Origin: Bacteroidia bacterium
GTDB lineage: Bacteria > Bacteroidota > Bacteroidia > Cytophagales > JAAEPT01
Direction: 5' to 3'
DNA length: 35,961 bases
Assembly (NCBI GenBank): GCA_030431525.1
Contig: JAUIJC010000040.1
Span: 1-35,961, forward strand
Shown: positions 1,331 to 34,327 of the stretch, one piece after another
How the letters are laid out: each line of letters starts with the position of its first letter
Position numbering within the stretch: position 1 is the stretch's first letter
The notes under the pieces: model-generated
What the model saw: only the letters and a program-made list of their open reading frames with translations
Databases searched by the model: none
Told to the model about the DNA's origin: nothing
Position numbers and translations under genes: made by a program

Positions 1331-1440
1331 GTGTTGGGGTGTTAAGGTGTTGAAGTATTGAGGTGTTGAGGTGTTGTAGTTCCGTAGCAAGGACTCGAAC
1401 ACCTCAACACTCCAACACCTCAACACCTCAACACTTTTTT
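1331..1440 (+). repeat. Octamer-word hairpin downstream of maeB, ending in a T-run
   Basis: The left arm is six phased 8-nt words of the GTGTTGAG type (1331-1378) and the right arm is words of the complementary AACACCTC type (1398-1434), with a loop of about 19 nt. Six T residues (1435-1440) follow directly, so on the + strand this could act as an intrinsic terminator. It starts 11 nt after the maeB stop codon and ends 11 nt before the ruvA ATG. The same word is used at 9541-9662 and 34265-34327. Confidence 0.9.
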
Positions 1441-1451
1441 ATTCCCCTACC

Positions 1452-2054
1452 ATGATTGCATTTATCGAAGGCCCATTTGCTCATAAGGACCCTGCAAAAG
1501 TGGTCATCAATTTGGGCGGAATTGGTTATGAAGTCTTTATCTCCCTTCAGACCTACGCCAATATTAAGGAAGCCGAAAGCGCTCGCTTGCACACCTATTT
1601 TCACGTCAAGGAAGACGCCCAGCTCCTCTACGGATTCTTTACCGAGGAGGAAAAGCAGGTATTCACGCTCCTCATTTCCATTTCAGGTATCGGGCCAAGC
1701 ACCGCGTTGGTCGTACTTTCCAGCCTCAGCCCAGCTGAACTTCAAAACGCCATCCTCACCGAAAATGTCAAAGTCATTCAATCGGTGAAGGGAATTGGGG
1801 CTAAAACCGCCCAAAGGGTGATTTTGGAGTTGAAGGACAAAATCCAGAAAATCATCTCGCTCCCTGAAGGGGAACTCCCAAAAGAAATTTCTCCAACGCC
1901 AGACAATAAACTCAGGGACGATGCGTTGGCCGCACTGACAACCCTTGGTATTGCCAAAGCTGCCGCCGAAAAGAGCATTGACAGCATTTTGAAAAAGGTG
2001 GGAGACGACGTGAACTTGGAAGAGCTTATCCGTCAGGCACTCAAGGCAAGGTAA
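1452..2054 (+). CDS. ruvA: Holliday junction branch-migration protein RuvA
   Basis: RuvA binds four-way DNA junctions as a tetramer and loads the RuvB helicase during recombination and repair. The 200-residue length is normal. The N-terminal OB-fold begins MIAFIEGPFAHKDP; two helix-hairpin-helix motifs are visible (ISGIGPSTALVVLSSL near residue 76 and VKGIGAKTAQRVILELK near residue 112). The C-terminal RuvB-contacting domain follows a linker (about residues 135-155) and covers the last 45 residues. The ATG at 1452 gives the standard N-terminus. There is no ruvB or ruvC next to it; ruvA beside sprA is an arrangement I recall from other Bacteroidota. Confidence 0.96.
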   Translation: MIAFIEGPFAHKDPAKVVINLGGIGYEVFISLQTYANIKEAESARLHTYFHVKEDAQLLYGFFTEEEKQVFTLLISISGIGPSTALVVLSSLSPAELQNAILTENVKVIQSVKGIGAKTAQRVILELKDKIQKIISLPEGELPKEISPTPDNKLRDDALAALTTLGIAKAAAEKSIDSILKKVGDDVNLEELIRQALKAR

Positions 2055-2359
2055 TGTAGTTTTACATCCCCTTTTACTGGATTTTGGCTTAAGGGCAAGC
2101 AGGGAAAACCTTCATCGTTTTGGTGACCAGCCTCTTGCCCTTGGCGAAGTGTGATTTATGTATGCACGAGAAATTCTTTATGGCAAGATAAACGTGTAAC
2201 TTGCGCCACTATTTGACCACCGTTTTCACACGGTTTTTATCCTAAAAAGGTGGTCTATTTCACGGGTCACGTCCCTCTTATCCTTTGATTATCAAGAGGA
2301 GGCCCACCTACACCCCCAAGGGTGCTTTCCTATTTAACTGATTTCAACCCACTGTTTTA
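2055..2359 (+). promoter_or_regulatory. Leader/intergenic region before sprA with several inverted repeats
   Basis: This 305-bp gap carries no convincing ORF. It contains an inverted repeat AAGGGCAAG (2091-2099)/CTTGCCCTT (2134-2142), a nested structure AGGTGG (2248-2253)/CCACCT (2304-2309) enclosing CCTCTT (2274-2279)/AAGAGG (2294-2299), and a small hairpin CACCC/GGGTG (2311-2324). A weak -7-like sequence TAACTTGC lies at 2197-2204; if used it would give a structured 5' UTR of roughly 150 nt for sprA. The repeats are directly visible; a regulatory role is inference. Confidence 0.4.
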
Positions 2360-5300
2360 GTGATTTCTTCCAAGAAGATATTGTTGCTGCTTACCCCCAT
2401 ATTGATGATGGGGGCTTGGATGTTTTCATTCGCCAATAACGGCGCCCCTCTCACAGAGCTTTTGGGCGCAGCGGTTGTTGACACCCTTTATCCAGAAGCG
2501 AAAGACCGTCGTGGTGATGTTTTTTCTAACCCCGAGGACAAATCTCCACTGAAAATCCTACCTCCACCCTCCAACACCAAAGTGGAAGTGGATGTGGACA
2601 CCAACCTGCGGACTTATAAAATCGAGGAGAAAACGGGCGATGTGGAAAACCGTCCGCCGTCTGAGATGACTTTTGAAGAATTTGCCGAGTACCAGCGTCG
2701 GAAAATGATTCAGCAACACTGGCAGACCTTGGAGGAATCCAACAAGCCACAGGCAGGACTCAACGACTCCCTACTTTTCCAAATTAAGGCCGCTGGTAAA
2801 CCCGTGGCCACTATCCGCCCAGCGGGTACTGTAACCTTGGAGTTTGGTGGTGATTTCCAACGTACCCAGAACCCAGCTATTCCTGTTGACAACCAACGCA
2901 CTGGCGGTTTCCTTTTTGACCAAAGCATTTCCCTCAACCTTTCAGGAACCATTGGCGAACGCCTAAAAATCGGGGCTAACTGGGACACCAAGGCCGCTTT
3001 TGAGTTTGACAACAACATTAACATTGACTACGTCGGTAAGGAGCGGGACATTATCCAAGACATCGAGGCGGGTAACGTCAGCATGCCGCTGAACAACACC
3101 CTCATTAGAGGGGCGCAGAACCTATTTGGTTTAAAAATGCGCATGCGTTTTGGGCATTTGTATGTAACGACTCTCCTATCGAACCAGCGCGGAACAACCC
3201 GTACGTTGACCGTTCGCGGAGGTGCTTCCACGCGCCCATTCGAGATTCCAGCAAGTGGATATGACGTGTACCGTCACTTCTTCTTGACTCACTATTTCCG
3301 TAACCAGTTCAACCAAGCCTACCGTGTTAACCCACTGAACCCGAACAACGGCTTCAAGATTACCCGTGTGGAGATATGGATTACCAACCGAAGCACTAAA
3401 ACGGAAGGACTTCGCAACATTGTCGGCTTTACAGACTTGGGAGAATACAACCCAAACAGCAAGGTGATTACTGGGCAAACGGGCCCTGTCAACCCTTCGG
3501 ATACTTCCAACAACCTGTTGAGCATCCTGAATGCCAACCCTAATTACCTGAACGCTGACCAAACCAACAGCACCCTTCAGAATTTGGGCTTTAACCAAAG
3601 CGCTGACTACGAAAAAATCAACAGTGCTCGCCAATTGGAGGAAGGCCGTGACTTTATCTTCCACCCAGATTTGGGCTACATCTCCTTGGTATCCAAACTC
3701 CAAGATGATGAAGCCTTGGCTGTCGCTTTTGAATACACCTTTAACGGCCGCCAATACAAGGTTGGTCAGCTTAAAGAAGACTACGCCAACGTTTCTGAAG
3801 ACGAAGTCATCCGCCTGAAGCTTCTCAAGCCTCAAGGCATCAACACATCCTCACCGATGTGGGACTTGATGATGAAGAACGTTTACTACCTGAACACCAC
3901 CAACCTTCAGAAAGACAACTTCCAGCTTCGTATTGTCTACAAGGATGACCGCACAGGTGTGGACAACCCAAGCCTTCAGGACGGTAAGGTGAAGAACATT
4001 CCATTGGTGCAATTGCTTCGGGCAGATACCTTGAACCCGAACGGAGACTTTGCGCCAGATGCCAACTATGACTTTATCGACGGGGCAACGGTAATTGCCA
4101 GAAATGGCCGTGTTGTTCTCCCATTGGTGGAACCATTTGGTTCGGACCTCGATTCAATATTCTTCACCCGCGACCAAGACAGCGCATTTTTCCTCTCCTC
4201 AAAATACACCTTCCAAAGCCTGTACGACCAAACCCAATCGCAGGCTGAACGGAACACAGAGAAGAACAAATTCTTCCTGACGGGTTTTTACCAATCAGCT
4301 TCTTCCACGGACATCCAGCTTCCAGGCATTAACATCGCCGAGGGTTCTGTAACCATCACCTCGGGAAGTATCACCCTCAGAGAGGGATCTGACTTTACGG
4401 TGAACTATGACATTGGCCGAGTAAGCATCACCAACGAGGGTGTTTTGGCCTCCGGCAAGGACCTGATCATCAAATACGAGCAGGCCAACCCATTTGCCTT
4501 CCGTACCAAAATGCTCTTGGGAACACGCTTGGACTATGTGGTCAGCGACAAAATTAACTTTGGTGCAACCCTTTTGCACCTGAATGAACGCCCGAACATT
4601 ACCCGTATCGGCATTGGCGACGAGCCTATCAAGAACACCCAATATGGTTTGGACGCCACCTATGAGGACGAATCCCGCTTTTTGACCAAAATGGTGGATG
4701 CCCTTCCTGTCATTCAGACCAAGGCCAAATCCAATGTTGCCCTTCGCTGGGAAGCGGCGATGTTGAAACCTGGCACCTCAAAGCTTCTGGAAGAAGGAGG
4801 AACGTCATACATCGATGCCTTTGAAGGCGCTCGAACCTCCTACTCCATGATAAGTGCACTGCCGTGGGTACTCGGTTCCACACCGAGGCGCTTGGGTAGT
4901 GCCAACACAGACTATCTCGACTGGTTGAGTGACAGCCTCAGCTATGGCTATCACCGCGCAAGGCTTTCATGGTATAACGTGGACCGCTCCTTCTACCAAG
5001 GAACACAAGGCGGGTTTACCTTGGACAACACCAACCAGGAAAACCCTTACACACGTGCTTACGCCTCTACGCAGCTTTTCCCAAACAGGCCGCAGGTAAA
5101 TGCCTCGTCCAACATCCAAACATTGCTGGATTTAGCTTACTACCCTGCACAGCGTGGTCCTTATAACTACAATGCTAACCCAACTGACATTGACCAAAAC
5201 GGCCGATTCATCAACCCTGAAAATAACTGGGCATCCATCACCAAGGAAATCACTTTTGATACTGACTTCGACAACGCCAACGTCGAATTCATCCAGTTCT

Positions 5301-8300
5301 GGCTACTCGACCCATACTTGAATGAGGGTCAGACTTTGGCAGAAGTACTCCCTGAAGACGAACAGCCTTTTTACAACCCAAATCAGGTTGGTGGTGAACT
5401 TTACATCAACTTGGGTAACGTTTCTGAAGACATTCTGAAAGACGAACGCCTTTCTTTTGAAAATGGCCTTCCAGACAATGTGGACAGCACCGATTGGGGT
5501 TTGGTTCCAAATATCCCATTCATTAATGACGCCTTTGACAACCAACAGGATCGCTCCAGTCAAGACGTTGGTCTGGATGGTGTTGGTGCAGAAAACGAGC
5601 AAAACTTCTTTGCCAGCTACCTCAACCAGCTCTCTACCATTGTCACGAACCAAGCGGCATTGGATCAAGCCATCAATGACCCATCAACGGACAACTTTGG
5701 ATTCTACCGCACCAGCGATGGTGACGAGCGTGGATTATTGACCCGTTACTTAAACTACTACGGTTACGAGAACAACTCCCCGATTCCTGGGGCGACAGGT
5801 AGCATTAACCAAGCTTCTCCTCAAACAAGAGCGAACACGGAGGATATCAATGGCGACAAAACCCTTAACACCCTTGACGCCTACTTCCAGTACAAGGTTG
5901 ACTTGCGTCCAGAAATGTTGAACGCTGACAACCCATTGATTACAAACGTCAACGTCATCCCAGAAACTGGTGAACGCTGGTTGCAGTTCAAGATTCCTGT
6001 TCGCACAGAAAACTCCGTAGGTGAAATCTCCGATTTCAACACCATCAAATTCATGCGGATGTACATGACGAACTTCTCCCAGCCAGTAGTTCTTCGTTTC
6101 GCAGAATTCCAATTGACCGCCAGCCAATGGCGTGTTTATACGGAAACGGACTTGGATGATCCAAATCCAAGCAAGCCTGTTTCCAAGGCACCATTAACCA
6201 TTTCCACGGTCAGCATTGAAGAAAACAAGGACGGTGTTGAAGGTAGCAGAGCGCCTTACCTTCTCCCTCCTGGAGTAATTCGAGATACTCCACCAGACCC
6301 TACGGCTCAAGGAGCATTGCTTCAGGACGATGAACAATCCATGGAGCTTGTGGTTACCGACCTTCCTGACAAACAAGCAGTAGGTGCCTTCAAGAACATG
6401 GCTTATGACCTGATCAACTACGGTCGTATCAAAATGTTCGTACACGCAGAGAGTATTGATCCAACAACACAAGATGGTGACGTGACCTTGTTCATGCGAA
6501 TCGGTACGGACCAGGCAAAAAACTACTACGAGATTGAAGTTCCTTTGGAGCTCACTCCTTTGAATGCTGAGACCCACGCTACCTCTGCTAACCCAGATGA
6601 TGAGGGGAACAGGAAAATCATTTGGCCAGATGCCAACACTATCGACTTGGCCGTTGATGAATTGATCAATACAAAGATTGAACGTGACCGCGTTGGTCAA
6701 ACCTCTGAAAGTCGCTTCTCTCGCCAATTCGGGAAATACACCCTTTCGGTGGTAGGTACGCCAGACATTAGTACTGTTCGGACGACTTTGATTGGTCTGC
6801 GAAATCCAAGCATTACCACCAATCCGAATCCTGACGACGGCAATAGTAAGACCATAGCTGTGTGGGTGAACGAACTTCGCGCCACGGATTTCAACACGGA
6901 TGTTGGTGTAGCCACCACAGCTACCTTGAATGCCAAGCTCGCTGACTTTGGTACTTTCAGTGCCAGTGGCCGCTTCGTATCAAACAACTATGGCGACATC
7001 GAGCAGCGCATTAGTGAGCGTACCCGAGCTACAACAGCACAGTATGGCGCCTCCACCAACTTGGACTTGGATCGCTTGATCTTCAAGAAAAAGGTCTTGA
7101 GTCTGCCTGTTTACGCCAGCTATGACCGCGAGGTAGTCACTCCTAAGTTCAACCCATTGAACCCTGACGTAAAACTGGACGATGCCCTCGACCTTCCTCA
7201 AAACCAATCCTCTGCTCAAGGCGGTAACGACTTGGAGGAAAAAGCGGTTTATAAAAAGACCGTAAAGAGCATTAACGTGACCAATGTGCGTAAGCACAAA
7301 GTGAAGCCCGATGCCAAAAAGCACGTCTATGACATTGAAAACCTTTCGGTGTCGGCAGGTTACACGGAAGAAACTCGTGGCGGATTGGGAACTGCTACCA
7401 TCGCCTACGGAAACAACATCAAAGAGTATAAGCGACAACAATGGACGGGTGGATTGGCTTATAACTATGACTTCTCGGCAAAGCCGGTAACCCCATTGAA
7501 AAAAGTGAAGTTCCTTCGTTCTAAACACTTGGCCTTAGTTCGGGACTTTAACTTCCAGCCATTGCCAAACAACATTACTTTCCGCAGTGATCTGAACCGG
7601 ACGTACACCAAAACCCAGCTTTACAACTCGGAACTTACCACTGCAGGAGTTTTGCCGACCTACGAAAAATCCTTCCTGCTGAACCGTACCTACGGCATGC
7701 GCTGGAATTTCACAAAGAGCCTTTCCTTCAACTATGCGGCTCAGGCCAATGCCATCGTGGATGAACCAACAGGTGACCGCTTGGGTGACAACAGCATTTC
7801 AAGGGCGGAATACAAGGATTCAGTTGTAGAGAACCTAAAGAACTTCGGCCGTCTTAAGGTGTACAATCAGGACATGAACCTGAACTACCGACTGCCACTG
7901 AGTAAAATTCCATTATTGAACTGGGTGCAAGCCGATGCCGCCTACAAAGTGAACTATAACTGGCAGGCCAGAGCACTTGGTTTGAAAGGTTTGGATAATG
8001 AAGCCTTGGGACACATCGTTTCAAACAAACGTGGAATTTCGGGCAACGCCAAACTAAACATGGTGCGCCTCTACGACAAGTCGGGTTACCTGAAGAAAAT
8101 CAACCATCCTCGTCGAAGCAAAGACACTACAAGCATTTTCACAAAGGCAGGTGAGGGTATTCTTCGATTGGCGATGTCTGTGCGTGACGTCAATGTGCGA
8201 TACAGCTGGGATCAAGGAATCACGGCTCCAGGCTACCTTCCTGTTCCTGATGCCTTGGGATTAAACTTCGGGCAAGCCAATGCTCCAGGCATCCCCTTCA

Positions 8301-9535: not shown

Positions 9536-9540
9536 TGAGA

Positions 9541-9662
9541 GTGTTTGGGTGTTGAGGTGTTGAGGTGTTGAGGTGTTGAGGTGTTGAGGTGTTGAGGTGT
9601 TGAGGTGTTGAGGTGTTGAAGTTATCAGACACAACACTTCAACACCCCAACACTTTAACACC
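9541..9662 (+). repeat. Octamer tandem array and hairpin downstream of sprA
   Basis: Eight perfect consecutive copies of GTGTTGAG occupy 9549-9612, preceded by a degenerate copy (9541-9548) and followed by GTGTTGAA (9613-9620). After a 10-nt spacer, complementary words of the type AACACTTC/AACACCCC run from 9631 to 9662, so the right arm can pair with only part of the longer left arm. It starts 5 nt after the sprA stop codon. No T-run follows. The perfect head-to-tail copies suggest copy-number instability. Confidence 0.93.
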
Positions 9663-9691
9663 ATACCCCTGCAACACTTCCCTACTTTGCT

Positions 9692-9699
9692 TAACTTGC
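9692..9699 (+). promoter_or_regulatory. Weak candidate -7 element for gcvH
   Basis: TAACTTGC lies 25 nt upstream of the gcvH ATG; the identical octamer occurs upstream of sprA at 2197-2204. It departs from the consensus TAnnTTTG, and a TTTG at a proper -33 distance is not obvious, so this is only a suggestion. Confidence 0.25.
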
Positions 9700-9724
9700 A
9701 TAAAATTCTACTTAGTACTCAACA

Positions 9725-10105: not shown

Positions 10106-10108
10106 TTG

Positions 10109-10166
10109 AATACCGAGCATTCGGCATGCCTAAGGTGTAAAGGCTTACCCAATGCTTGGTATTTTT
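10109..10166 (+). terminator. Intrinsic terminator after gcvH
   Basis: AATACCGAGCATT (10109-10121) pairs with AATGCTTGGTATT (10151-10163) with one G-T mismatch, and the 3' arm runs into TTTTT (10162-10166). It starts 4 nt after the gcvH stop codon. Confidence 0.7.
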
Positions 10167-10194
10167 CATTTATCTGCCATTAGTTCGCTCAGGG

Positions 10195-11418: not shown

Positions 11419-11425
11419 GCAAATC

Positions 11426-11717: not shown

Positions 11718-11825
11718 GTTGATGGTTGGTGGTTTATAGTTCATTGTTCGTGGTTCATGGTTAGTGCACTGCTTCCATGAACTATAAACCATGAACCATG
11801 AACTACAAACCACCATCCATGAATC
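11718..11825 (+). repeat. Heptamer-word hairpin between the Dabb gene and the flippase gene
   Basis: The left arm is six heptamers starting with GTT (GTTGATG, GTTGGTG, GTTTATA, GTTCATT, GTTCGTG, GTTCATG; 11718-11759) plus a partial seventh. The right arm is seven complementary heptamers of the CATGAAC type (11776-11824). The order of variants partly matches across the arms: the second and third words of the left arm (GTTGGTG, GTTTATA) face GATGGTG and GTTTGTA. The right arm touches the next gene's ATG at 11826. No T-run is present. Confidence 0.92.
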
Positions 11826-12833
11826 ATGTCCTCCTCCAAATTACGCTCCTTACTTGCCCAATTGAGTTTTTTGATCCTTGGCCTCATGTTGCTTTGGATG
11901 GCCTTGGGAAGGACGAATTTGGATGACTTTCAAAGACAATTCAGCCAGTTAGACTTTTTCTGGATCTTCGTTGTTCTCCTCATCAGTTTTCTGGGTCATG
12001 CCATTCGCGCATTGCGTTGGCAACTTCTTTTGGCTCCCACAGATCATCACCCTTCATTCTGGCGGACCTATCAAGCATTGATGGCAGGCTATTTCGTAAA
12101 CCTTGCTGTCCCACGGCTTGGAGAAGTGAGCCGTTGCATTGGATTGAAGCGCACAGAAAAAGTCCCTTTCAACACGTCTTTTGGAACAGTCGTTACCGAA
12201 CGTGCCATTGATATCCTCTGCTTATTATTGATTGTGGTGGCTGTCAGCCTTGGGTTTTATGAGGTTGTTGAGGAACTCCTGCAGCAGTATATCCTTCCAG
12301 CAGTCGAACAAAAACTACCCAAACAACGACTGTGGATAACATTGGCCGGAGCCTTAATGGTGATCATTGGGTTAGGCATCGTACTGAAACGTCCTATCCT
12401 GAATTGGCTCCACAAAATTAATGTGGCAGACTATCTAAAAAACTTCAAGCAAGGACTGCTAAGTGTGTTTCAACTCGACCAAAAGGGATTGTTCCTCAGC
12501 TATACCGTGCTGATTTGGGCGGGATATTTCCTGACCAGCTTTTGTTGCTTTTTCGCCTATCCGGCCACCGCTCACTTGGGAATAAAAGCTGGCTTGGCCC
12601 TACTCGCCTTTGGTAGCATCGCCAAAAGTCTTCCCATTCAAGGAGGAGGACTGGGAGCTTATCACTTTGTTGCTGCCCAAACGTTATTACTCTTCGCTCT
12701 GCCCCCAACTGATGGCCAGTTTTTAGCGGTCATCATTCATGGAACTACCACGCTTTTCCAACTTATTGTGGGTGGCATCTGTTTCGGCCTGCAAGCAAGG
12801 GGAGAGAAAAAGAGATTAGAGGTTAGACCTTAG
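11826..12833 (+). CDS. Flippase-like membrane protein (lysylphosphatidylglycerol synthase TM domain family)
   Basis: A 335-residue polytopic membrane protein of the UPF0104/LPG_synthase_TM family; relatives move lipids or lipid-linked intermediates across the inner membrane, but the substrate here is unknown. Hydrophobic helices are seen at about residues 11-28, 40-56, 124-145, 173-190, 225-250 and 300-320. The family pattern is visible in FLGHAIRALRWQLLL, NLAVPRLGEVSRCIGLKR and IQGGGLGAYHFVAAQ. The last residues (RLEVRP) and the TAG stop are encoded inside a heptamer-word hairpin (12813-12870), and the ATG directly follows another one, so both ends of the gene adjoin such elements. It converges with the epimerase gene. 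Confidence 0.88.
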   Translation: MSSSKLRSLLAQLSFLILGLMLLWMALGRTNLDDFQRQFSQLDFFWIFVVLLISFLGHAIRALRWQLLLAPTDHHPSFWRTYQALMAGYFVNLAVPRLGEVSRCIGLKRTEKVPFNTSFGTVVTERAIDILCLLLIVVAVSLGFYEVVEELLQQYILPAVEQKLPKQRLWITLAGALMVIIGLGIVLKRPILNWLHKINVADYLKNFKQGLLSVFQLDQKGLFLSYTVLIWAGYFLTSFCCFFAYPATAHLGIKAGLALLAFGSIAKSLPIQGGGLGAYHFVAAQTLLLFALPPTDGQFLAVIIHGTTTLFQLIVGGICFGLQARGEKKRLEVRP

Positions 12834-12870
12834 ATTTTAGCTCAACGATTGCTAAAGTCTAACCTCTAAT
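12813..12870 (+). repeat. Heptamer-word hairpin overlapping the flippase stop codon
   Basis: Left words AGATTAG, AGGTTAG, ACCTTAG, ATTTTAG (12813-12840) all end in TTAG; an 11-nt loop follows, then CTAAAGT, CTAACCT, CTAAT (12852-12870). The stop codon of the upstream gene (12831-12833) is the last three bases of the third word. It lies between convergent genes. No T-run is present on either side. Confidence 0.88.
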
Positions 12871-25327: not shown

Positions 25328-25335
25328 TAATTTTG
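25328..25335 (+). promoter_or_regulatory. -7 promoter element for the thioesterase gene
   Basis: TAATTTTG matches TAnnTTTG exactly, 45 nt upstream of the GTG start. No clear TTTG is seen at the -33 distance. Confidence 0.55.
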
Positions 25336-25379
25336 TAGTTGCAATCAAAGGCGATTCGCTCGCCTAAATCCTCTCTGTC

Positions 25380-25802
25380 GTGCGCATCAAAATCCCCGTA
25401 CCCGCATCCTTTTCCTTCAAAACAGAAATCCCTGTCCGCATTGGCGACCTGAACTATGGAGGCCACGTAGGAAACGAAGTCTTTTTGGCTTATGCCCAAG
25501 AGGCCCGCGTACATTTCCTCAATCAACTGGGCTATGCTGAATTAAATCTGGAAGGTGTAGGATTGATTATGGCTGATGCCGCCATCAACTACAAGGCCGA
25601 GGCATTCCATGGAGATACCTTGGTTGTAGAAGTTACCGCCAACGACCCAACCAGAATGGGTTTCGACCTTGTGTACCGCATGACCAACAAGGCGAACGGA
25701 AAAGAGGTTTGTATCGTTAAGACCGGCATGGTCTGCTTCGATTACGAGAATAAAAAGGTGGCCATGTTGCCCGAGGCCGCAAAAGAAAAACTTTTCAGTT
25801 AG
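25380..25802 (+). CDS. Hotdog-fold acyl-CoA thioesterase
   Basis: A 140-residue protein of the 4-hydroxybenzoyl-CoA thioesterase/YbgC type. The hotdog helix and active-site region are visible in PVRIGDLNYGGHVGNEVFLAYAQEARVHFLNQLG, where the D-x-N-xx-GH pattern is the usual one. The second half (VGLIMADAAINYKAEAFHGDTLVVEV) is also typical. It hydrolyses some acyl-CoA or acyl-ACP; the exact substrate is unknown. The start is GTG at 25380, with no family-like sequence upstream in frame. The TAG stop codon lies in the first word of a heptamer hairpin that separates it from rlmN. Confidence 0.88.
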   Translation: MRIKIPVPASFSFKTEIPVRIGDLNYGGHVGNEVFLAYAQEARVHFLNQLGYAELNLEGVGLIMADAAINYKAEAFHGDTLVVEVTANDPTRMGFDLVYRMTNKANGKEVCIVKTGMVCFDYENKKVAMLPEAAKEKLFS

Positions 25803-25875
25803 TCAGTTATCAGTTAACAGTTATCAGCCCAATGTTAGCTGACTGTTAACTGATAACCGTTAACTGATAACTGAA
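25796..25875 (+). repeat. Heptamer-word hairpin between the thioesterase gene and rlmN
   Basis: Left words: CAGTTAG (25796-25802, containing the stop TAG), then after one base CAGTTAT, CAGTTAA, CAGTTAT (25804-25824). Right words: TTAACTG, ATAACCG, TTAACTG, ATAACTG (25846-25873). The spacer (25828-25845) also carries a degenerate copy. It ends 9 nt before the rlmN start. No T-run is present. Confidence 0.9.
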
Positions 25876-25882
25876 TATTGCC

Positions 25883-26914: not shown

Positions 26915-26924
26915 TTAAACCCAA

Positions 26925-26989
26925 GTAAAACAAAAAGTCCAGACCTGACAGGTTTCTAAAACCTGTCAGGTCTGGACTTTTTGTTTTAC
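26925..26989. terminator. Long perfect hairpin, bidirectional terminator between convergent genes
   Basis: A 30-bp perfect inverted repeat (26925-26954 with 26960-26989) with a 5-nt loop. The centre is CCTGACAGGTTT/AAACCTGTCAGG, and each outer arm contributes a T-rich end (CTTTTTGTTTTAC), so it can terminate transcription from both sides: rlmN on the plus strand and the HugZ-like gene on the minus strand. The GACAGGTT core recurs in the hairpins at 27680 and 28925. Confidence 0.85.
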
Positions 26990-27005
26990 CCTTCAAAGAA
27001 AATCA

Positions 27006-27536: not shown

Positions 27537-27679
27537 AATTAGATTAATTCAAATAGAGCTTTCACAAAAATACGCTCTTCCCTCGCCAAAGGGTATCGCC
27601 GCAGTTGGGTAAATCCATGGAAGTCTCCTACCTATCAAGCTCCTTAACGCTCACCATCATTAGGTAGTCTTGGGATATG

Positions 27680-27718
27680 AAAAAAGCCCCAACTGGTTTT
27701 TGCTAACCTGTCGGGGCT
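27680..27718 (-). terminator. Intrinsic terminator of the T9SS cargo gene
   Basis: Minus strand: AGCCCCGACAGGTT pairs with AACCAGTTGGGGCT, then a six-T run (complement of 27680-27685). It lies about 31 nt after the stop codon of the gene at 27750. Confidence 0.85.
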
Positions 27719-27749
27719 CTTACAATGTTATAAATTCCTATTTGGAATA

Positions 27750-28898: not shown

Positions 28899-28924
28899 AA
28901 CTAAATCAAGTTCTAAATGATAAA

Positions 28925-28957
28925 GGCCCCGACAGGTTCATTAAACCTATCGGGGCC
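28925..28957 (-). terminator. Hairpin downstream of the FKBP gene
   Basis: GGCCCCGACAGGTT (28925-28938) pairs with AACCTATCGGGGCC (28944-28957), one G-T pair. The minus-strand flank is T-rich but not a clean T-run, so termination for the FKBP gene is likely but not certain. It shares the GACAGGTT core with its two neighbours. Confidence 0.6.
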
Positions 28958-29026
28958 AAAATTATGAGATTTGTTTCAGACGTTCTTCAAAAACATCAAA
29001 TCCCTTACACCTCATTTAAGAAGCTC

Positions 29027-29527
29027 TTAGTGCTGGTGTCCACCTGGACCGTGCACGTGTCCGTGGTCCAACTCTTCAGCGGTAGCCTCACGCACTTCAA
29101 TCACCTCACCAGTGAAGTGAAGCTCTTGGCCGGCCAACATGTGGTTGAAATCCATTTTAACGGCTTGGTCACCCACCTCAAGGATACGACCTTGAAGCTG
29201 AGTACCGTCTTGGTGCTGCATTGGCAAAACATTGCCCTCAACAAGCATTTCAGTGTTCACAACGCCTTGTTCGTCTTTGAACACATCCAAAGGAAGGTCA
29301 ACAACGGCTTGCGGATCACGCTCGCCATAGCCTTCTTCCGGGGAGATAACCATGTCAAAAGTGTCTCCGGCCTGCTTGCCTTCCAATTCCTTTTCAAATC
29401 CAGGAATCATCATGCCTACGCCGTGAATAAAAAGTAATGGTTGCTCTTTGGAGGCTTGGTCAAGTACCTGGCCGTCCACCTTGAGTGTATAGGACACTGA
29501 AGGTACTGTGTTGGTTGTAATCTTCAT
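29027..29527 (-). CDS. SlyD-type FKBP peptidyl-prolyl cis-trans isomerase
   Basis: A 166-residue cytoplasmic PPIase and chaperone. The FKBP fold residues (VSYTLKVDGQVLDQAS, LLFIHGVGMMIPGFEKELEGKQAGDTFDM) flank the IF-domain insertion (about residues 72-120, with EEGYGERDPQAVVDLPLDVF and VEGNVLPMQHQDG) that is typical of SlyD. The C-terminus is His-rich (HGHVHGPGGHQH), as in SlyD, where it binds nickel. Start at ATG 29527. No metalloenzyme genes are near. The upstream minus-strand gene is an outer-membrane protein with its own terminator. Confidence 0.93.
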   Translation of the reverse strand: MKITTNTVPSVSYTLKVDGQVLDQASKEQPLLFIHGVGMMIPGFEKELEGKQAGDTFDMVISPEEGYGERDPQAVVDLPLDVFKDEQGVVNTEMLVEGNVLPMQHQDGTQLQGRILEVGDQAVKMDFNHMLAGQELHFTGEVIEVREATAEELDHGHVHGPGGHQH

Positions 29528-29574
29528 ATTGGTGAAGGTACAGTTTTCTTATTCCAATGGCCATTCTAGCAAAA

Positions 29575-29609
29575 GAAAACAGCTACTCCCCTCAGGAAAT
29601 AGCTGTTTC
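29575..29609 (-). terminator. Terminator of the outer-membrane protein gene
   Basis: Minus strand: GAAACAGCTAT pairs with AGTAGCTGTTTTC around a loop, followed by a T-rich stretch. It lies 24 nt after the stop codon of the gene at 29633. Confidence 0.7.
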
Positions 29610-29632
29610 AAAACCTTTTTGTTCCCTTTTAA

Positions 29633-30319
29633 TTAGAACGCATAACCTACCGAGAAGCCGAAGCGAGGCATAAAGCTGGCTTTCTTAAAGGTAGCCTTAG
29701 CAGAACTTGCTGTTACTTCCACCTCTGGATCACCCAGCAGGTCAACCATTTCTTGCAAGTTGCCCAACTGTGCTGGATAGTTTGCCGAAGCGTCCTCGGA
29801 AGTGACATTGTACTCGATGTCATTACCCATGTATCCTAAACCAGCATTCAAGTCAATAGCGATGCGATCTCCGAGCAACCACTGGTAACCCACGCCAAGA
29901 CCACCGCCAATGCTTTTGATGAATCCTCCGTTTTCATACTCCACATTGTTATCCACATAGGTTCCAGCCAAATCGTAATTACTGTAACGGAAATATGGAG
30001 CAGCATACAACCCTTGAGCCCTTCCTTTATCACCCAAATAATAGCGGAATTCAGGGGTGATGGAATACCCGTTCATTTTGAGGTATTGCACCTTATTGGA
30101 AGGGTCCATATCAAGCATTCCCAAGAATGGAATCTTCCGATTGAACATATAAGATGCCCCCAAGGATGCAGACATTTTATCCGTGATTACATACTCGTAT
30201 GTTCCGTAAACATTTCCCAAGCCGAGAGCAGGAACATTCAACTTCACCACATGGTCCTGAGCGAAACTTGCCCCCATGAGTCCAAACAAAACTGATATTG
30301 TAGTTATTAACTTTTTCAT
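29633..30319 (-). CDS. Outer-membrane beta-barrel protein (DUF3575-like)
   Basis: A 228-residue small barrel. The signal peptide is MKKLITTISVLFGLMGASFAQ, and the mature sequence begins VVKLNVPALGLGNVYGTYEYVITDKMSASLGASY, the pattern of the small DUF3575 porin-like family. Alternating aromatic beta-strands (RYYLGDKGRAQGLYAAPYFRY, SIGGGLGVGYQWLLGDRIAIDLNAGLGYMG) lead to a C-terminal strand ending FGFSVGYAF with the terminal phenylalanine expected for barrel insertion. The function is unknown. It stands alone, with 205 bp up to TrkH and a terminator behind it. Confidence 0.85.
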   Translation of the reverse strand: MKKLITTISVLFGLMGASFAQDHVVKLNVPALGLGNVYGTYEYVITDKMSASLGASYMFNRKIPFLGMLDMDPSNKVQYLKMNGYSITPEFRYYLGDKGRAQGLYAAPYFRYSNYDLAGTYVDNNVEYENGGFIKSIGGGLGVGYQWLLGDRIAIDLNAGLGYMGNDIEYNVTSEDASANYPAQLGNLQEMVDLLGDPEVEVTASSAKATFKKASFMPRFGFSVGYAF

Positions 30320-30457
30320 AGCACATTCATTTTTATTATCCTATTGATAATCAGATAAATGCAATTGCTATTCCAAAAGTTCAATTTTAAGAGGTATGTT
30401 TTTTACGTCTTTTTCAAAAAATCAAACCAGCATGATTTTAAAGTCTGTTTTTTCCAC

Positions 30458-30492
30458 AAAAAAAAACGAGGATAGCCTTTAGCTCCCTCGTT
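30458..30492 (-). terminator. Intrinsic terminator of trkH
   Basis: Minus strand: AACGAGG pairs with CCTCGTT (plus 30466-30492), followed by a nine-T run (complement of 30458-30466). It lies 32 nt after the trkH stop codon. The rest of the 30320-30523 gap shows no clear promoter. Confidence 0.88.
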
Positions 30493-30523
30493 AATCAATA
30501 GTCATACACTTCTTGTTGAATAC

Positions 30524-32326
30524 CTATCCAATCATCAAGTGCGCACTTGGATACTTATAGTTGGTAGAAACCACTCGCGAACTCAATGCCAGTGCCAAGG
30601 TCAGCGTACCAATCCTTCCGATAAACATGGATAGGATAATGATACTTTTTCCCTGAACAGACAGTTCATTGGTAATTCCTGTACTCAAGCCTGTGGTACT
30701 AAATGCAGAGACCGCTTCGAAGGTGACACTGACAATATCCAGATTGGATTCCGTAATGGATAGAATAAAAATAATTGTAAGAATATAGACCGCCGCAAAC
30801 ACGAAAATGGAAAAGGCCTTGCCCAACATCTCCTGAGGAATGGAACGATTCCCCATCTCCATATTCTTCTTTCCGCGAATGGTGGCCAAGGCCGAGGTAA
30901 GAATCAGCAGAAAGGTTGATGTCTTAATACCGCCGCCTGTGGAGCCCGATGAAGCCCCTACAAACATTAGAAATATCATAAAAATCAACGTAGGTGCCCT
31001 AAGCGCGGAAAAGTTCACCGTATTAAACCCAGCCGTTCTGGTCGTCACGGATTGGAAGAAGGCTCCCACAATCGCCCTCATATCTTCCACTTCACTCAAG
31101 GTTCCACCCTCGGCTCTCTCCAAGAAATAAAACACGCCCATACCCACAAACACAAGAATCATGGTCATAAACAAGGAAACCTTGGTGGATAACTTCCAAT
31201 CCTTCCAAGGCTTTTCCATCCGCTCACGTAGCATCCGAGGAGAGAACAAATCCTCAACCGTAGAGAAGCCCAAACTTCCCATGATAATGGTCAAGGCAAT
31301 CACCACATGTAATAACAAGGAATGACGAATTTCCTGTTGGTAAAGCCCATCCGAAAACAAGCTGAAACCCGCGTTACAAAAGGCTGAAACAGCATGGAAA
31401 ACCGAAAAGAATACACGTTGCCAAAATCCCCCAAACACCATCTCGCGTCCCCAAGTGAAGAAAATCAACACCGTGGAAATCGCCTCGATGGTCAAGGTCA
31501 TAAACACAATTTTCCTCAACAAGGCCTTGGCAGAACTCAACGATTCACTACTCAAAAAGTCTTGCAAAATCACCTGTTGCTTCAAGCCCACACCATCCTT
31601 CATAAACATAGCAAAGAAGGTGGCAAAGGACACAATTCCTATCCCGCCGAACTGAATCAAGAGCAACAGCACCAGCTTTCCCTTAAAGGTGAAATAAGTG
31701 GAAACATCCACCACCGATAGCCCCGTCACACAAGACGCACTGGTAGAAGTGAATAAGGCCGTCAAGAAATCAGCGCCTCCAGCCCCAGTAGTCATCTGAG
31801 GAAGCATCAGCAAGCCTGTCCCAATGCCAATCAAGACGATAAAGCTGAGAATAAACGTTCCAGCAGGTTTGAGGGCCAATGAGTTGAGGTAACGACTGAC
31901 ACGTACAAACTCAATCCCCACCAAATAGAGCATTGACAGGGTAACGAAAACCCAGTAATGATGCCGGTAATGGTCGTAATCAACATTCTGGAAGAAAGCT
32001 TGAAGCGGATAATGTCCAAAGATGAGACGGCTAAGTCCCACATACACGATGCTCGCCACAATCACCCCCTCGAACCACGTGTGCTTCAAAAAATCAAGCC
32101 GATCAAAGCTGTAAAGCAAGCGCACAAAATACACCAAGCAGAACATCGTAAAGATGGCGTCCATACCCTTGTGGACCTCTGTCGACTGCTCAGGGCTTAG
32201 GTGATAGCCATTCTCATAGACAATCAAGGTCAGGGCCAACAAAGCCGACACAATCGACACGCCCTTGGCAATGCGCAATACAATACCCTTGGTATCGTAC
32301 AAAAACTCATTTAACCGCTCTATCAT
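30524..32326 (-). CDS. trkH: TrkH/KtrB-family potassium uptake protein
   Basis: Inner-membrane K+ translocation subunit, 600 residues from the ATG at 32326 (MIERLNEFLYDTK); the frame stays open for 33 bp upstream into the repeat element via TTG, which is unlikely to be used. Four K+-filter loops are visible: TSASCVTGLSVV near residue 200, HAVSAFCNAGFSL, SVTTRTAGFNTVN and EAVSAFSTTGLSTG, the diagnostic fourfold M1-P-M2 arrangement. There is also an N-terminal extension of about 130 residues with extra membrane segments. The regulatory TrkA/KtrA partner is not in the window. Its upstream neighbour on this strand is a GT9 gene, separated by a heptamer hairpin. Confidence 0.93.
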   Translation of the reverse strand: MIERLNEFLYDTKGIVLRIAKGVSIVSALLALTLIVYENGYHLSPEQSTEVHKGMDAIFTMFCLVYFVRLLYSFDRLDFLKHTWFEGVIVASIVYVGLSRLIFGHYPLQAFFQNVDYDHYRHHYWVFVTLSMLYLVGIEFVRVSRYLNSLALKPAGTFILSFIVLIGIGTGLLMLPQMTTGAGGADFLTALFTSTSASCVTGLSVVDVSTYFTFKGKLVLLLLIQFGGIGIVSFATFFAMFMKDGVGLKQQVILQDFLSSESLSSAKALLRKIVFMTLTIEAISTVLIFFTWGREMVFGGFWQRVFFSVFHAVSAFCNAGFSLFSDGLYQQEIRHSLLLHVVIALTIIMGSLGFSTVEDLFSPRMLRERMEKPWKDWKLSTKVSLFMTMILVFVGMGVFYFLERAEGGTLSEVEDMRAIVGAFFQSVTTRTAGFNTVNFSALRAPTLIFMIFLMFVGASSGSTGGGIKTSTFLLILTSALATIRGKKNMEMGNRSIPQEMLGKAFSIFVFAAVYILTIIFILSITESNLDIVSVTFEAVSAFSTTGLSTGITNELSVQGKSIIILSMFIGRIGTLTLALALSSRVVSTNYKYPSAHLMIG

Positions 32327-32344
32327 TTCAGCGAGTCTTTTTGG

Positions 32345-32419
32345 AGTACCAAGTACCAAGTATAGCGTACCAAGTCATACCATTCGTCATGATACTTGGT
32401 ACACTATACTTGATACTCA
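32345..32419 (-). repeat. Heptamer-word hairpin between the GT9 gene and trkH
   Basis: On the plus strand AGTACCA, AGTACCA, AGTATAG, CGTACCA, AGTCATA (32345-32379) face TGATACT, TGGTACA, CTATACT, TGATACT (32390-32417). The TGA stop codon of the GT9 gene (complement of 32417-32419) falls at the outer end of the element. It is also 18 nt from the trkH start. No T-run on the minus strand. Confidence 0.9.
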
Positions 32420-33427
32420 ACAATCCGTACTCTTTACCTCCTTAATATTCTCTAAGCGCTCAACGACCTTGGATACATCGAACCACTCCAAACAAGCATA
32501 ATCACCGCGCCAACAAGGTTTGTTTCCAAACACAGAACACGGACGACAAGGCAAGGTGTCCACATCCACCTGTACCGCATTCTCCAACGACTGTCCATAG
32601 CCGAGGAAACCAGCATCCGGATGCGTGGCTCCCCACACAGAAACCACTGGAAGCCCGACCAAAGAGGCCAAATGCATATTGGCCGAATCCATGCTGACCA
32701 TCGCATCCAAGCCAGCCATAAATTCCAACTCCCCTTTCAGGTCAAAAGCACCAGCCACCAATTTCACATTGGACAAGCCTTCACTCAAACGCTCCAACTG
32801 CTCCAACTCCCCCTTTCCACCAAAAAGGCTCACCGCCCAACCCTTGGCAGTCATCTGCTCCAACAACTCGCGTGATTTCTTCTCAGGCAAGCATTTTCCC
32901 TGATGAGCGGCAAAGGGCGCAAACCCAATCTTTGGAATTTCATGGGGGCGCCTCCGGCGATCCGGCAAGGCAAACGAAAGCTTCACTTCCCGTCCCAAAC
33001 GACCAAACACATCTGCATAGCGCTGACATGAATGAGTCAGAGACTTTCGCTCCTTATTCTCCTTGCGTACCAAGGCCTTCTTCTCCTCTCTGCCCTTGTC
33101 AATCATGGCCACCTTGGTACCCGACAACAAGAACAGGTTACGAACAACATGCGTCCGCAATACGCCATGCAAATCCGCCACAGCATCTACTTCCTCTTTC
33201 TTAAGGAGTTTATAGAGTCGATGCAGACCGCCAATCCCATTATAATCCTTATCCACATCCACACCCAACACTTTTAGCCTTGGATGCTGTGGAAACAATT
33301 TTGCGGGAAACGGACGCGTGACGAATACAACTTCCACCTCGGGATGTTGCTCCAAAAGAGCCATCACCACGGGAATGGTCATCGCCACATCGCCAAAGGC
33401 GGAAAACCGGAGGGCAAGGATGCGCAT
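32417..33427 (-). CDS. Glycosyltransferase family 9 (heptosyltransferase-like)
   Basis: A 336-residue GT-B fold enzyme of the ADP-heptose:LPS heptosyltransferase family, expected to add sugars to a lipopolysaccharide core or related envelope glycan at the cytoplasmic face. The N-terminal MRILALRFSAFGDVAMTIPVV is the family signature. The second domain has the KIGFAPFAAHQGKCLPEKKSRELLEQM stretch, SMDSANMHLASLVGLPVVSVWGATHPDAGF (the nucleotide-sugar site) and C-terminal cysteines (CRPCSVFGNKPC, CLEW). The ATG at 33427 is right behind the heptamer hairpin separating it from the DUF4254 gene. I recall GT9 next to DUF4254 in other Bacteroidota, so a joint role in envelope glycan assembly is plausible. 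Confidence 0.9.
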   Translation of the reverse strand: MRILALRFSAFGDVAMTIPVVMALLEQHPEVEVVFVTRPFPAKLFPQHPRLKVLGVDVDKDYNGIGGLHRLYKLLKKEEVDAVADLHGVLRTHVVRNLFLLSGTKVAMIDKGREEKKALVRKENKERKSLTHSCQRYADVFGRLGREVKLSFALPDRRRRPHEIPKIGFAPFAAHQGKCLPEKKSRELLEQMTAKGWAVSLFGGKGELEQLERLSEGLSNVKLVAGAFDLKGELEFMAGLDAMVSMDSANMHLASLVGLPVVSVWGATHPDAGFLGYGQSLENAVQVDVDTLPCRPCSVFGNKPCWRGDYACLEWFDVSKVVERLENIKEVKSTDC

Positions 33428-33436
33428 GGGGAATGG

Positions 33437-33521
33437 ACGTTAGACCTTAGATATTAGACGTTAGCTCCAGCCTACTTGGGCTAAAGTCTAACGTCTAAAA
33501 GCGAAGCGGTCTAAAGTCTTA
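33437..33521 (-). repeat. Heptamer-word hairpin between the DUF4254 gene and GT9
   Basis: On the plus strand ACGTTAG, ACCTTAG, ATATTAG, ACGTTAG (33437-33464) face CTAAAGT, CTAACGT, CTAAAAG (33481-33501) and, after an interruption, CTAAAGT (33511-33517). The loop contains a small AGCC/GGGCT stem. The stop codon of the DUF4254 gene (complement of 33519-33521) adjoins the last word. No T-run on the minus strand. Confidence 0.9.
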
Positions 33522-34133
33522 TTTCTTTTTGTAAAGAACAGGGTTCAAGCTCGGGTCGTTGTACATCTTCATCTGGCGATAAACCTTCATGTACTTCTCA
33601 CCTGAAGCGATGTCCTGCACCAATTCCTCGATGGCAGTGCCTAGGTCGATGTGTTGCTCGCTCAAAACAGCCAGCTTACCACGACATTTCGCCTTGTGCT
33701 CCTCAGAGGCATCCTCACGTTCCACCTCCTCAGCCATGTGGAAAACTTTTAGCGCGAGGATAGAAAAACGGTCGATGGCCCAAGCAGGGCTCTCGGTATT
33801 GATTTTTGCTCCTTCCTTCACTTCCACGTCAGCGTACTTCTCACGGAAGTAGGTATCAATTTCCTCCACCATGTCCGTGCGGTCTTGGTTGGAAGCATCA
33901 ATGCGGCGCTTGATTTTCAAAGCCTCCTCAGCGGAGATGCTTGGCTCACGGATGATGTCCTCCAAATGCCACTGAACCGTGTCAATCCAGTTCTTGTGGT
34001 AAAGCGTCGCCTCGATGGTTCCCTCAGCAAAAGGGTTGTTCAAAGGCGCGTCAACATTGTCGGTTTTATGGTAGTCAGCAATGCTCTGGTTGAAGATGTC
34101 CCAAGCCTGCTCTGTGAAGGATTTCTGTGCCAT
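33519..34133 (-). CDS. DUF4254 domain protein
   Basis: A 204-residue, mostly alpha-helical, charged protein of unknown function starting at ATG 34133 (MAQKSFTEQAWDIFNQS). The frame is open 162 bp further upstream, but those 54 residues are a translation of palindromic intergenic repeat and a terminator and do not look like protein. Landmarks are TIEATLYHKNWIDTVQWHLEDIIREPSI, KRRIDASNQDRTDMVEEID and PAWAIDRFSILALKVFHM, as in the DUF4254 family. No signal peptide. It lies directly upstream of the GT9 gene, 91 bp apart; this pairing suggests a role linked to the glycosyltransferase, but that is inference. Confidence 0.85.
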   Translation of the reverse strand: MAQKSFTEQAWDIFNQSIADYHKTDNVDAPLNNPFAEGTIEATLYHKNWIDTVQWHLEDIIREPSISAEEALKIKRRIDASNQDRTDMVEEIDTYFREKYADVEVKEGAKINTESPAWAIDRFSILALKVFHMAEEVEREDASEEHKAKCRGKLAVLSEQHIDLGTAIEELVQDIASGEKYMKVYRQMKMYNDPSLNPVLYKKK

Positions 34134-34143
34134 ATGTTGCTTT

Positions 34144-34208
34144 CGTAGAGGCAGACCTGTGTGTCTGCCTACAATCATTATGGGCGGACACACAGGTCCG
34201 CCCCTACG
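34144..34208 (-). repeat. Nested palindrome between the aminotransferase and DUF4254 genes
   Basis: A left arm of 26 nt (34144-34169) pairs with a right arm (34182-34208). Each arm is also itself a small palindrome (GGCAGAC..GTCTGCC; GGCGGAC..GTCCGCC), so the region can form one long hairpin or two side by side. Arms differ by transitions that keep G-T or A-T pairing. Similar GGACCTGTGTGTCCGCCC-type sequences I recall as dispersed intergenic repeats in several bacteria. Confidence 0.8.
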
Positions 34209-34226
34209 GTATTGCCCGCAAGTTAC

Positions 34227-34258
34227 AAAAAAAGCCACCTTCCTTTCAGAAGATGGCT
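34227..34258 (-). terminator. Intrinsic terminator of the aspartate aminotransferase gene
   Basis: Minus strand: AGCCATCTT pairs with AAGGTGGCT, followed by a seven-T run (complement of 34227-34233). It lies 72 nt after the stop codon, on the far side of the word hairpin 34265-34327. Confidence 0.85.
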
Positions 34259-34264
34259 TGAATG

Positions 34265-34327
34265 GTGTTGGAGTATTGAAGTGTTTCAGTAACACAACAC
34301 CTCAGCACCTTAACACTCCAACACTAA
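34265..34327 (-). repeat. Octamer-word hairpin behind the aspartate aminotransferase gene
   Basis: On the plus strand GTGTTGGA, GTATTGAA, GTGTTTCA (34265-34288) face AACACCTC, AGCACCTT, AACACTCC, AACACTAA (34296-34327). It uses the same 8-nt word as the elements behind maeB and sprA. It ends 3 nt from the aminotransferase stop codon and is followed, in the direction of transcription, by a separate intrinsic terminator. Confidence 0.85.

Follow-up and report, generated by a model that had tools for sequence, protein, structure and literature searches.

The window, i.e., the whole 35,961-nt stretch of DNA that was analysed, contains eight elements that were confirmed at the positions given in a preliminary description and that are built on one design, in which an arm of short words repeated in phase is followed by a loop and an arm of complementary words (Table 1). 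The word has a period of 7 nt in five elements and of 8 nt in three, as noted earlier and as borne out by reading and by the scores of a gapless hairpin scan, which recovered seven of the eight and missed 34263-34326, visible on folding. For each of the eight elements, 0 of 200 shuffled versions folded as well as the real sequence. Rfam gave no match in the window at gathering score. The PTA_PTB-domain gene preceding the first hairpin may encode the C-terminal portion of a malic enzyme. The earlier view of one design with many words stood as far as the shared design and the variation of words are concerned, but the eight elements do not represent eight words, as TTAGACN is common to the elements at 12815 and 33436, and GTGTTGAG to those at 1330, 9541 and 34263.

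Table 1. Phased-word hairpins in the window, their RNA-fold z-scores and their neighbouring genes
Feature	Position	Gapless-scan match	Fold z	Structure	Neighbouring genes
Period-8 hairpin, GTGTTGAG family	1330..1435	1330-1435	-10.0	38-nt arms, loop 30	9 nt past stop of PTA_PTB-domain gene, 16 nt before ruvA
Period-8 array, GTGTTGAG family	9541..9662	9588-9662	-6.5	left 9541-9618, right arm 9632-9662	5 nt past stop of SprA-like gene, 62 nt before gcvH
Period-7 hairpin, GTTCATG	11718..11823	11722-11820	-8.1	arms 11722-11762 / 11780-11820	between Dabb-domain gene (stop 11710) and LPG_synthase_TM gene (ATG 11826)
Period-7 hairpin, TTAGACN family	12808..12870	12815-12870	-6.3		overlaps LPG_synthase_TM gene and provides its stop codon; convergent with Aldose_epim gene
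Period-7 hairpin, CAGTTAT (= TAACTGA word)	25796..25874	25803-25874	-8.8		first word gives stop codon of 4HBT thioesterase gene; rlmN 8 nt downstream
Period-7 hairpin, AGTACCA	32345..32417	32352-32417	-6.8		adjoins stop of minus-strand glycosyltransferase-9 gene; called trkH-like start 25 nt further
Period-7 hairpin, TTAGACN	33430..33516	33436-33495	-4.8	plus outer stem	23 nt past stop of minus-strand DUF4254 gene, 8 nt before next start
Period-8 hairpin, GTGTTGAG	34263..34326		-5.3	seen in RNA fold, outside gapless-scan matches	directly past stop (34331) of minus-strand aminotransferase gene

A sample of 1,132,040 bp (27% of the genome; L057, which is all N, was excluded) contained 92 periodic-arm hairpins, 77 with period 7, nine with period 8 and six with other periods, and zero with periods of 9-13. 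Five shuffles of the gaps together produced one phased hairpin against 83 in the real ones, and entirely within a called gene lay none of the 79 elements with a word family and one, itself without a family, of 86 overall. The seven elements by which these sets differ were dropped as their family was absent or on one arm only, and 78 of the 79 were placed relative to genes, the remaining one lying at a contig edge. By reading, the phased arms form seven word families without a common tag. Many copies have words in common and some also loops (same-family loops are alike, with a score of at least 10, in 24 of 462 pairs and in 0 of 462 after shuffling), which is left unexplained by local slippage alone.

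Genes were called with a simple program based on codon usage, which put the start at 11826 wrongly at 12081; such errors enter all class and distance counts. On these calls, 45 of the 56 tandem-gap elements were nearer the preceding stop codon than the next start (median distances 8.5 and 25.5 nt), and nine of the 56 lay at or within the stop codon. The claim that the elements sit behind genes is thus upheld as closeness to stop codons, but not as exclusion from divergent gaps; none occurs there in the window, but genome-wide 12 of the 78 placed elements do, where the number of gaps predicts 13.8 and their length 16.3, and confident gene calls alone give 9 of 60 (11.2 or 13.9 expected). Moreover, 68% of the tandem-gap elements lie at most 40 nt from the next start, compared with 23% of control hairpins, which weakens a role in termination because a strong terminator at that distance would silence the next gene.

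That the phased hairpins are classical intrinsic terminators, repetitive by chance, is very unlikely, even though the element at 1330 finishes in a six-T run and three of the 79 elements are preceded by an A-run and followed by a T-run. The 56 tandem elements show no T-tail (3.45 T per 10 nt on the sense side vs 3.43 on the mirror side), whereas 116 control hairpins of the same genome do (4.20 vs 3.18), and convergent gaps hold 10 of the 78 placed elements where 10 are expected, whereas 190 intergenic control hairpins comprise 59 convergent and 15 divergent ones. On these two comparisons, classical intrinsic terminators were rejected as a class, and in that form the earlier suggestion of transcript 3' ends fails. 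It retains some force from the places in which the phased hairpins are found, i.e., where conventional hairpins are absent or where a congeneric species has a terminator. A conventional hairpin was absent from nine of the 10 convergent gaps with a phased hairpin and from 31 of the 83 others (both kinds in one gap, a phased hairpin alone in nine, a conventional one alone in 52 and neither in 31; p 0.0019). Tandem gaps show the same near-exclusivity (both 4, phased only 52, conventional only 104, neither 308; p 0.002), which after splitting by gap length has p values of 0.14 and 0.08 and could partly stem from short gaps without room for a second hairpin; divergent gaps show none (both 2, phased only 9, conventional only 12, neither 88). 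In genus g58, the gap upstream of ruvA is phased in two of the four species read and holds a T-tailed terminator in the other two. The phased hairpins therefore occupy the terminator's place at gene ends, a statement that concerns position and not function.

The same hairpin design recurs patchily, with other words, in other Bacteroidota. At both purE-ispG and ruvA (30 loci each), species within one genus have phased hairpins with differing, sometimes unrelated words, so that at such places it seems to be the structure that is retained and not the sequence. Among the purE-ispG loci of the Parabacteroides genus, 15 were called phased by the program, of which 14 were kept after L192, a short GC-rich hairpin, was judged false; one locus was left undecided. 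In these 14, arms scored higher against their own partner (mean 22.9) than against foreign arms (13.4), a value reached by 0 of 20,000 permutations; own scores are raised by the selection of loci that have a hairpin, and the same split rule was used for own and foreign arms. In 8 of the 14 rows, one or more foreign arms score as well as the own arm. An earlier run on 13 loci picked by eye, which included L193 and L199 (unphased by the program rule) and missed the phased L171, L178 and L188, gave 22.1 vs 11.6 (p 5e-5). Own- and foreign-arm scores in G000 agree with this concert of the arms but were not relied on, as elements there were selected by hairpin score, a weakness that also affects the two purE-ispG runs, though to a lesser degree. 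No purE-ispG hairpin was found by the program in five of the 30 loci, among them L198, whose roughly 9-nt word array was missed. At ruvA, L320 (wrong start) was counted as having none, and the L314 terminator, outside the program's 170-nt window, was read separately.

Between two species that are about 90% identical, the arrays differ by exact 7-nt gaps at two places, and at a third place a single unit has A/T in one species but C/G in the other, the difference being present in both arms. Together with the arm-to-arm concert, the 7-nt gaps support slipped or template-switching replication, which had been listed earlier among the possible origins. Another gap of this pair shows a difference of 12 nt, which is no multiple of 7, and in a G076 gap 9 kb into its stretch the arms of the sister species have drifted apart, so that the concert is not universal. 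If the arms are indeed written by fold-back copying, their covariation alone is here not evidence of selection on RNA, because such copying can yield it unaided. Stem mismatches read on the sense strand show no G.T bias (G.T 34 and A.C 40 of 123), as expected of copying at the DNA level. Intrastrand template switching has been proposed to yield more G-C than C-G pairs (PMC8794818), and a U-A excess is also predicted there. The 5' arm has more G than C in 64 of the 79 elements (11 reverse, four equal) and in 38 of 47 elsewhere (four reverse, five equal; orthologous, non-independent loci included), while control hairpins with this and the reverse polarity number 93 to 106 and 79 to 71. Family C lacks the polarity (5 to 5 of 12), and the U-A excess is barely visible (5' arm T 0.324, A 0.315).

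Precedents exist for heptamer repeats, in Xanthomonas, Nostoc and Beggiatoaceae, and for a stem built on a repeated word, in Nostoc trnL P6b. In P6b of the Nostoc trnL group I intron (Kaasalainen 2015, PMC4476775), a hairpin stem is built on a repeated 7-nt word as it is here, the alternative words TDNGATT and NNTGAGT repeatedly replace each other at one site, and unit indels occur, some on both stem sides; that case concerns one cyanobacterial intron site with two words, whereas the present one concerns many intergenic sites and words in Bacteroidota. The GGGAATC and GGGGA(C/T)T heptamer arrays described from Xanthomonas and Nostoc (Rehm 2015, PMC4692102) lie mostly between genes and closer to the preceding one (28 vs 160 nt), with few in divergent gaps (8% and 7%); inverted neighbouring arrays number 70 in Xcc and 75 in Xac. 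The phased elements resemble them in the 7-nt unit, the intergenic location and the closeness to the preceding gene's end. The heptamers, discussed as G-quadruplex, are one G-rich word, whereas here the hairpin is the defining trait and the words are many; by reading, the consensus words lack GGG tracts, and some units of the GTGTTGAG family have GGG or GGGG. No assigned function for hairpins of this kind was found in searchable papers.

On the sequence comparisons made here, the reading that we favour, with something short of an even chance of being right, is that word slippage and fold-back template switching make the hairpins, and that these are kept or tolerated behind genes, where they would act as stem-loops at transcript ends or between cistrons. 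Through slippage, a word of 7 or 8 nt would multiply, after which the growing strand would fold back and one arm would be copied into the other by intrastrand template switching. The same fold-back process would later tend to hold the arms in register, so that an altered word spreads through both, and copies would persist mostly directly behind stop codons. As RNA stem-loops they would replace the conventional hairpin at a gene end or between two cistrons, where they would most likely block 3'-to-5' decay and insulate adjacent genes, whether or not transcription truly terminates. The missing T-tail, the 12 of 78 elements in divergent gaps, the non-universal arm concert and the partial polarity speak against it. 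A neutral by-product is a serious contender, though probably not the answer: slippage and template switching would act everywhere, and the arrays, functionless, would survive only where harmless, behind stops. Such a process would yield all the DNA-level features (period restriction, arm concert, 7-nt gaps, lack of G.T bias), as well as elements overlapping or providing stop codons, the lack of a T-tail, gap classes as expected and the absence of the hairpin from some relatives, but it does not lead one to expect that phased and conventional hairpins nearly exclude each other in convergent and tandem gaps or that phased ones occupy terminator places of same-genus species. A further reading, less likely than not, is that structure and not sequence is inherited at these gaps, i.e., a hairpin slot interchangeable with a terminator, in which fold-back copying rewrites the word or another word displaces it entirely, since any phased word gives a working stem, words being exchangeable as in Nostoc P6b across many genes and lineages.

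REPs are short extragenic palindromes that often lie behind genes, and the phased hairpins resemble them in these respects. It is nevertheless improbable that they are mobile palindromes of a REP- or MITE-like kind moved by a transposase, word families being element families and word change re-insertion. The alike loops within families would fit, as would unrelated words at ruvA within one genus, a CGCAGA hairpin that occurs twice in Parabacteroides G073 within a unit with GTGTCAAA/TTTGACAC ends, and outer flanks that are alike within families in 28 of 2452 comparisons (11 after shuffling), mainly owing to a few B-family copies. Bracketing 5-/6-mers, looked for as target-site duplications, are mildly in excess (17 vs 9.7 expected from mismatched pairs), which could also come from leftover words at ragged array ends. 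Most flanks are, however, unrelated, and the Y1 transposase (PF01797), matched in 22 of 28 genomes and three times in G000, gave no match in the hairpin carriers G059, G073, G076 and G163; the Y1 gene in L059 of this genome, the only one whose flanks were read, is bordered by a different palindrome. Mobility by RAYT/REP was rejected on this empty search of the four carriers, which covered this transposase family only. REPs bear a GTAG or CGTC tag, and those with GTAG are associated with RAYT transposases (PMC3733652); in the phased words no shared tag was read, and the four carriers gave no Y1 match.

If slippage, fold-back copying and retention behind genes is the right reading, it would provide a natural and frequent case in bacteria of long stems that arise from folded-back repeated words and not by base-by-base compensation, and the template-switch model would become testable at many sites, i.e., at the 79 assigned elements in the sample. 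It would also add a class of transcript-end elements that escapes T-tail-based terminator rules and, in the window, Rfam.

The word of the CAGTTAT family (family E) is the TAACTGA word of direct repeats that are reported (MacGregor 2015, PMC4679880) as intergenic in Beggiatoaceae, Cyanobacteria and Bacteroidetes; in BOGUAY these are mostly just upstream of starts, with one indirect, whereas here paired arms lie near stops. Three successive CAGTTAN units occur in 19 of 247 Bacteroidota genomes and the same pattern read backwards in 12; as this control word also forms arrays, the TAACTGA word is not special. Three TTAGACN units occur in four of the 247 genomes and the backward pattern in eight. 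That the word acts as a signal, or that it proves horizontal transfer, was rejected, as the backward patterns match too. As to carriage by phages, 13 and 14 stretches of a viral collection match two word patterns.

The window, which carries ruvA, a SprA-like gene, gcvH, and rlmN among other genes, is part of contig C66 in a Bacteroidota genome of 4,236,503 bases and 75 contigs. Of 58 further genomes listed as relatives, one belongs to the same family and none to the same genus. The eight phased hairpins listed in the preliminary description were borne out, with RNA fold z-scores of -4.8 to -10.0 and none of 200 shuffles equaling any of them. Approximately 1.13 Mb of this genome, window included, was scanned for gapless inverted repeats (score of at least 12, loop of at most 60), and arm periodicity was scored for periods 4 to 13, arms being regarded as periodic at z of at least 3. 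Among the 299 hairpins obtained, 92 had periodic arms, with period 7 in 77, period 8 in 9, period 4 in 3, period 5 in 1, and period 6 in 2, and periods 9 to 13 were absent from this sample. In 645 gap segments 83 phased hairpins were present versus 1 in five dinucleotide shuffles, and hairpins of all kinds numbered 270 versus a total of 7 over the five shuffles. Plain tandem arrays displayed the same restriction in period (15 arrays of period 7, one of them intragenic, 4 of period 8, and 1 each of periods 6 and 9). Seven word families cover 79 of the 86 hairpins of period 7 or 8.

Word families of phased hairpins in the sampled part of the host genome
Word family	Elements	Period
TTAGACN	26	
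GTATTAT/GTACAAT	18	
GTATCAA/GACACAA	12	
CAGTTAT	9	
AGTACCA/AGTACGG	7	
GTGTTGAG	6	8
GTTCATG	1	

None of the 79 assigned elements lies wholly within a called gene; 56 occupy tandem gaps, 12 divergent gaps, 10 convergent gaps, and 1 a contig edge. The initial impression that divergent gaps are free of them fails genome-wide, as 12 were found versus 13.8 or 16.3 expected from gap number or length, respectively, and avoidance is not significant (9 of 60 versus 11.2 or 13.9 with confident genes only). Their position behind genes, also proposed from the window, is confirmed as closeness to the stop codon, the median distance in tandem gaps being 8.5 nt versus 25.5 nt to the next start, with 45 of 56 elements closer to the stop and 9 of 56 touching or overlapping it. 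For control hairpins of the same genome, the corresponding distances to the stop and to the next start are 29 and 131.5 nt.

Phased hairpins are not ordinary terminators, yet they occupy the terminators' place. The number of T residues in 10 nt was 3.45 in the sense and 3.43 in the mirror orientation, i.e., no T-tail, versus 4.20 and 3.18 for the control hairpins, which carry one; a sense-strand G.T excess was absent among the 123 stem mismatches (34 G.T, 40 A.C). A conventional hairpin was encountered in 1 of 10 convergent gaps with a phased hairpin versus 52 of 83 without (p 0.0019), and in 4 of 56 versus 104 of 412 tandem gaps (p 0.002), and divergent gaps displayed no such exclusivity (2 of 11 versus 12 of 100). 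Short gaps with little room may add to this exclusivity, which in tandem gaps gave p 0.14 below 150 nt and p 0.08 at 150 nt or more.

The purE-ispG and ruvA gaps were chosen because elements had been noticed there, and their occupancy is therefore not a fair sample: in Parabacteroides, where gcvH was present in 36 of 38 genomes and 30 loci were read, the purE-ispG gap was phased in 14 loci by our own count (15 by the program), contained another hairpin in 9 and none in 5, with 1 unassigned, and in family f11, where 80 of 81 genomes had ruvA and 30 loci were read, phased, other, and no hairpins numbered 6, 14, and 10 upstream and 5, 10, and 15 downstream of ruvA, the last class including one locus, L320, that did not resolve. 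The purE-ispG words were GTTGAAA, GTTGACA, AATTGAC, AATTGAA, AATGAAG, and the 8-mer AGTTGACA, several only one or two letters apart. Across the 14 phased loci, which entered through having a hairpin, left arms matched their own right arm better than foreign ones (22.9 versus 13.4; 0 of 20,000 permutations), with at least one foreign arm equaling the own arm in 8 of 14 rows, and this test had also been run earlier on 13 loci. The better own-arm match indicates joint change of the two arms since the species diverged. In a species pair of approximately 90% identity, arrays at two places differed by gaps of exactly 7 nt and those at a third by 12 nt, one unit there differing on both arms; at a fourth place the arms of one species had drifted apart.

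Around ruvA, four of the five genomes of one genus had a phased upstream gap with three unrelated words (AATGTAC twice, GTGAGTG, GTTTACA), and two had a phased downstream gap with two words. Genomes G044 and G134, with RuvA proteins 97% identical, have different words upstream as well as downstream of the gene. Four species were read in another genus: two had phased hairpins, and in the remaining two a T-tailed terminator occupied the same place. The window element near 1330 is likewise upstream of ruvA, but behind a different neighbor.

Elsewhere phased hairpins were patchy across lineages. Across 1.29 Mb from 80 named gcvH loci, hairpins of period 7 numbered 14 and those of other periods 1 to 3, with words such as AATTGAA (P. 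distasonis), GTTGAAA, AATTGAC, and GTTGACA in Parabacteroides. Forty same-order genomes (at most 20 kb each, 768 kb) yielded 13 of period 7, some not clear word arrays, 5 of period 4, and 1 to 2 of each other period. Out of 247 genomes, 4 and 19 had matches to two word patterns, and 8 and 12 to the same patterns read backwards as controls; no single word is favored.

The G-richer arm was the 5' arm in 64 of 79 elements of the host genome (reverse 11, equal 4) and in 38 of 47 in other genomes, orthologous loci included (reverse 4, equal 5); control hairpins lacked such polarity (93 to 106; 79 to 71), and word family C breaks the rule (5 to 5 of 12). Intrastrand template switching has been proposed as the reason why RNA stems have an excess of G-C over C-G and U-A over A-U, the repaired pair being set by the 5' base (PMC8794818). 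Only the G-C excess is clear in phased arms, T and A being nearly equal in the 5' arm (T 0.324, A 0.315), and the polarity agrees with such switching without proving it. In the preferred explanation, the word would be multiplied by slippage, the second arm would be made and renewed by fold-back template switching, and copies would be retained downstream of genes, where having a stem is either neutral or beneficial. Position and exclusivity with conventional hairpins suggest a role in RNA, which might comprise end protection, insulation, or possibly Rho-assisted end formation. Loops were alike in 24 of 462 same-family pairs versus 0 shuffled, and in 5 of 1884 different-family pairs versus 3 shuffled. 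This likeness, together with longer flanks common to three family-B copies, indicates that a portion of the elements moved, or were duplicated, in their entirety. As the common agent, Y1 transposases were rejected, no match being found in four carrier genomes.

Heptamer repeats are already known. Those of Xanthomonas and Nostoc, including inverted pairs, resemble the phased hairpins in closeness to the preceding gene (PMC4692102), TAACTGA arrays are described for Beggiatoaceae, Cyanobacteria, and five Bacteroidetes (PMC4679880), and Nostoc trnL P6b has exchangeable 7-nt words within one stem (PMC4476775). In a literature mostly outside subscription journals, no title or abstract opening was found that describes phased-word hairpins throughout a genome whose word changes between orthologous sites.

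Several other elements were encountered alongside. Family-B hairpins at L014:2245, L054:1040, and L054:19359 have TACAAAAATGTCCAGTAG-like flanks, which for the first two are present on both sides, and both L054 hairpins occupy divergent gaps. Window positions 26925-26989 contain a 33-nt palindrome (AGACCTGACAGGTTT, 3 nt, AAACCTGTCAGGTCT), present at 18 places in the genome and as a single copy in each of 4 relatives out of 117; with one mismatch permitted, at least 8 extra outer pairs extend 10 of the 11 copies read and 15-20 extend 8 of them, and these pairs are locus-specific sequence, reflecting either terminator-loop insertion or inverted flank copying. A GTAGGGGCRGACCTGTGTGTCYGCC-type REP-like palindrome lies at window 34144-34208, with 7 half-copies in the sampled genome part. 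At L059:9195-9533 (contig C39 of the host genome), a Y1_Tnp transposase gene with GCCCTNNNAGGGC-core palindromes on both flanks is a conventional REPtron-like unit, unrelated to phased hairpins. In genome G073, a CGCAGA-word hairpin with a period of roughly 9-10 nt lies inside a unit with GTGTCAAA / TTTGACAC ends (L201:3168-3310, L202:12608-12745); in the sister species, different sequence occupies each of these two positions. Finally, in the pglZ-tsaE gap (L225:1369-1491 and orthologues L221 and L222) phased arms flank a motif like TAnnTTTG, the Bacteroidota -7 promoter element, and the phased element may thus frame a putative promoter.
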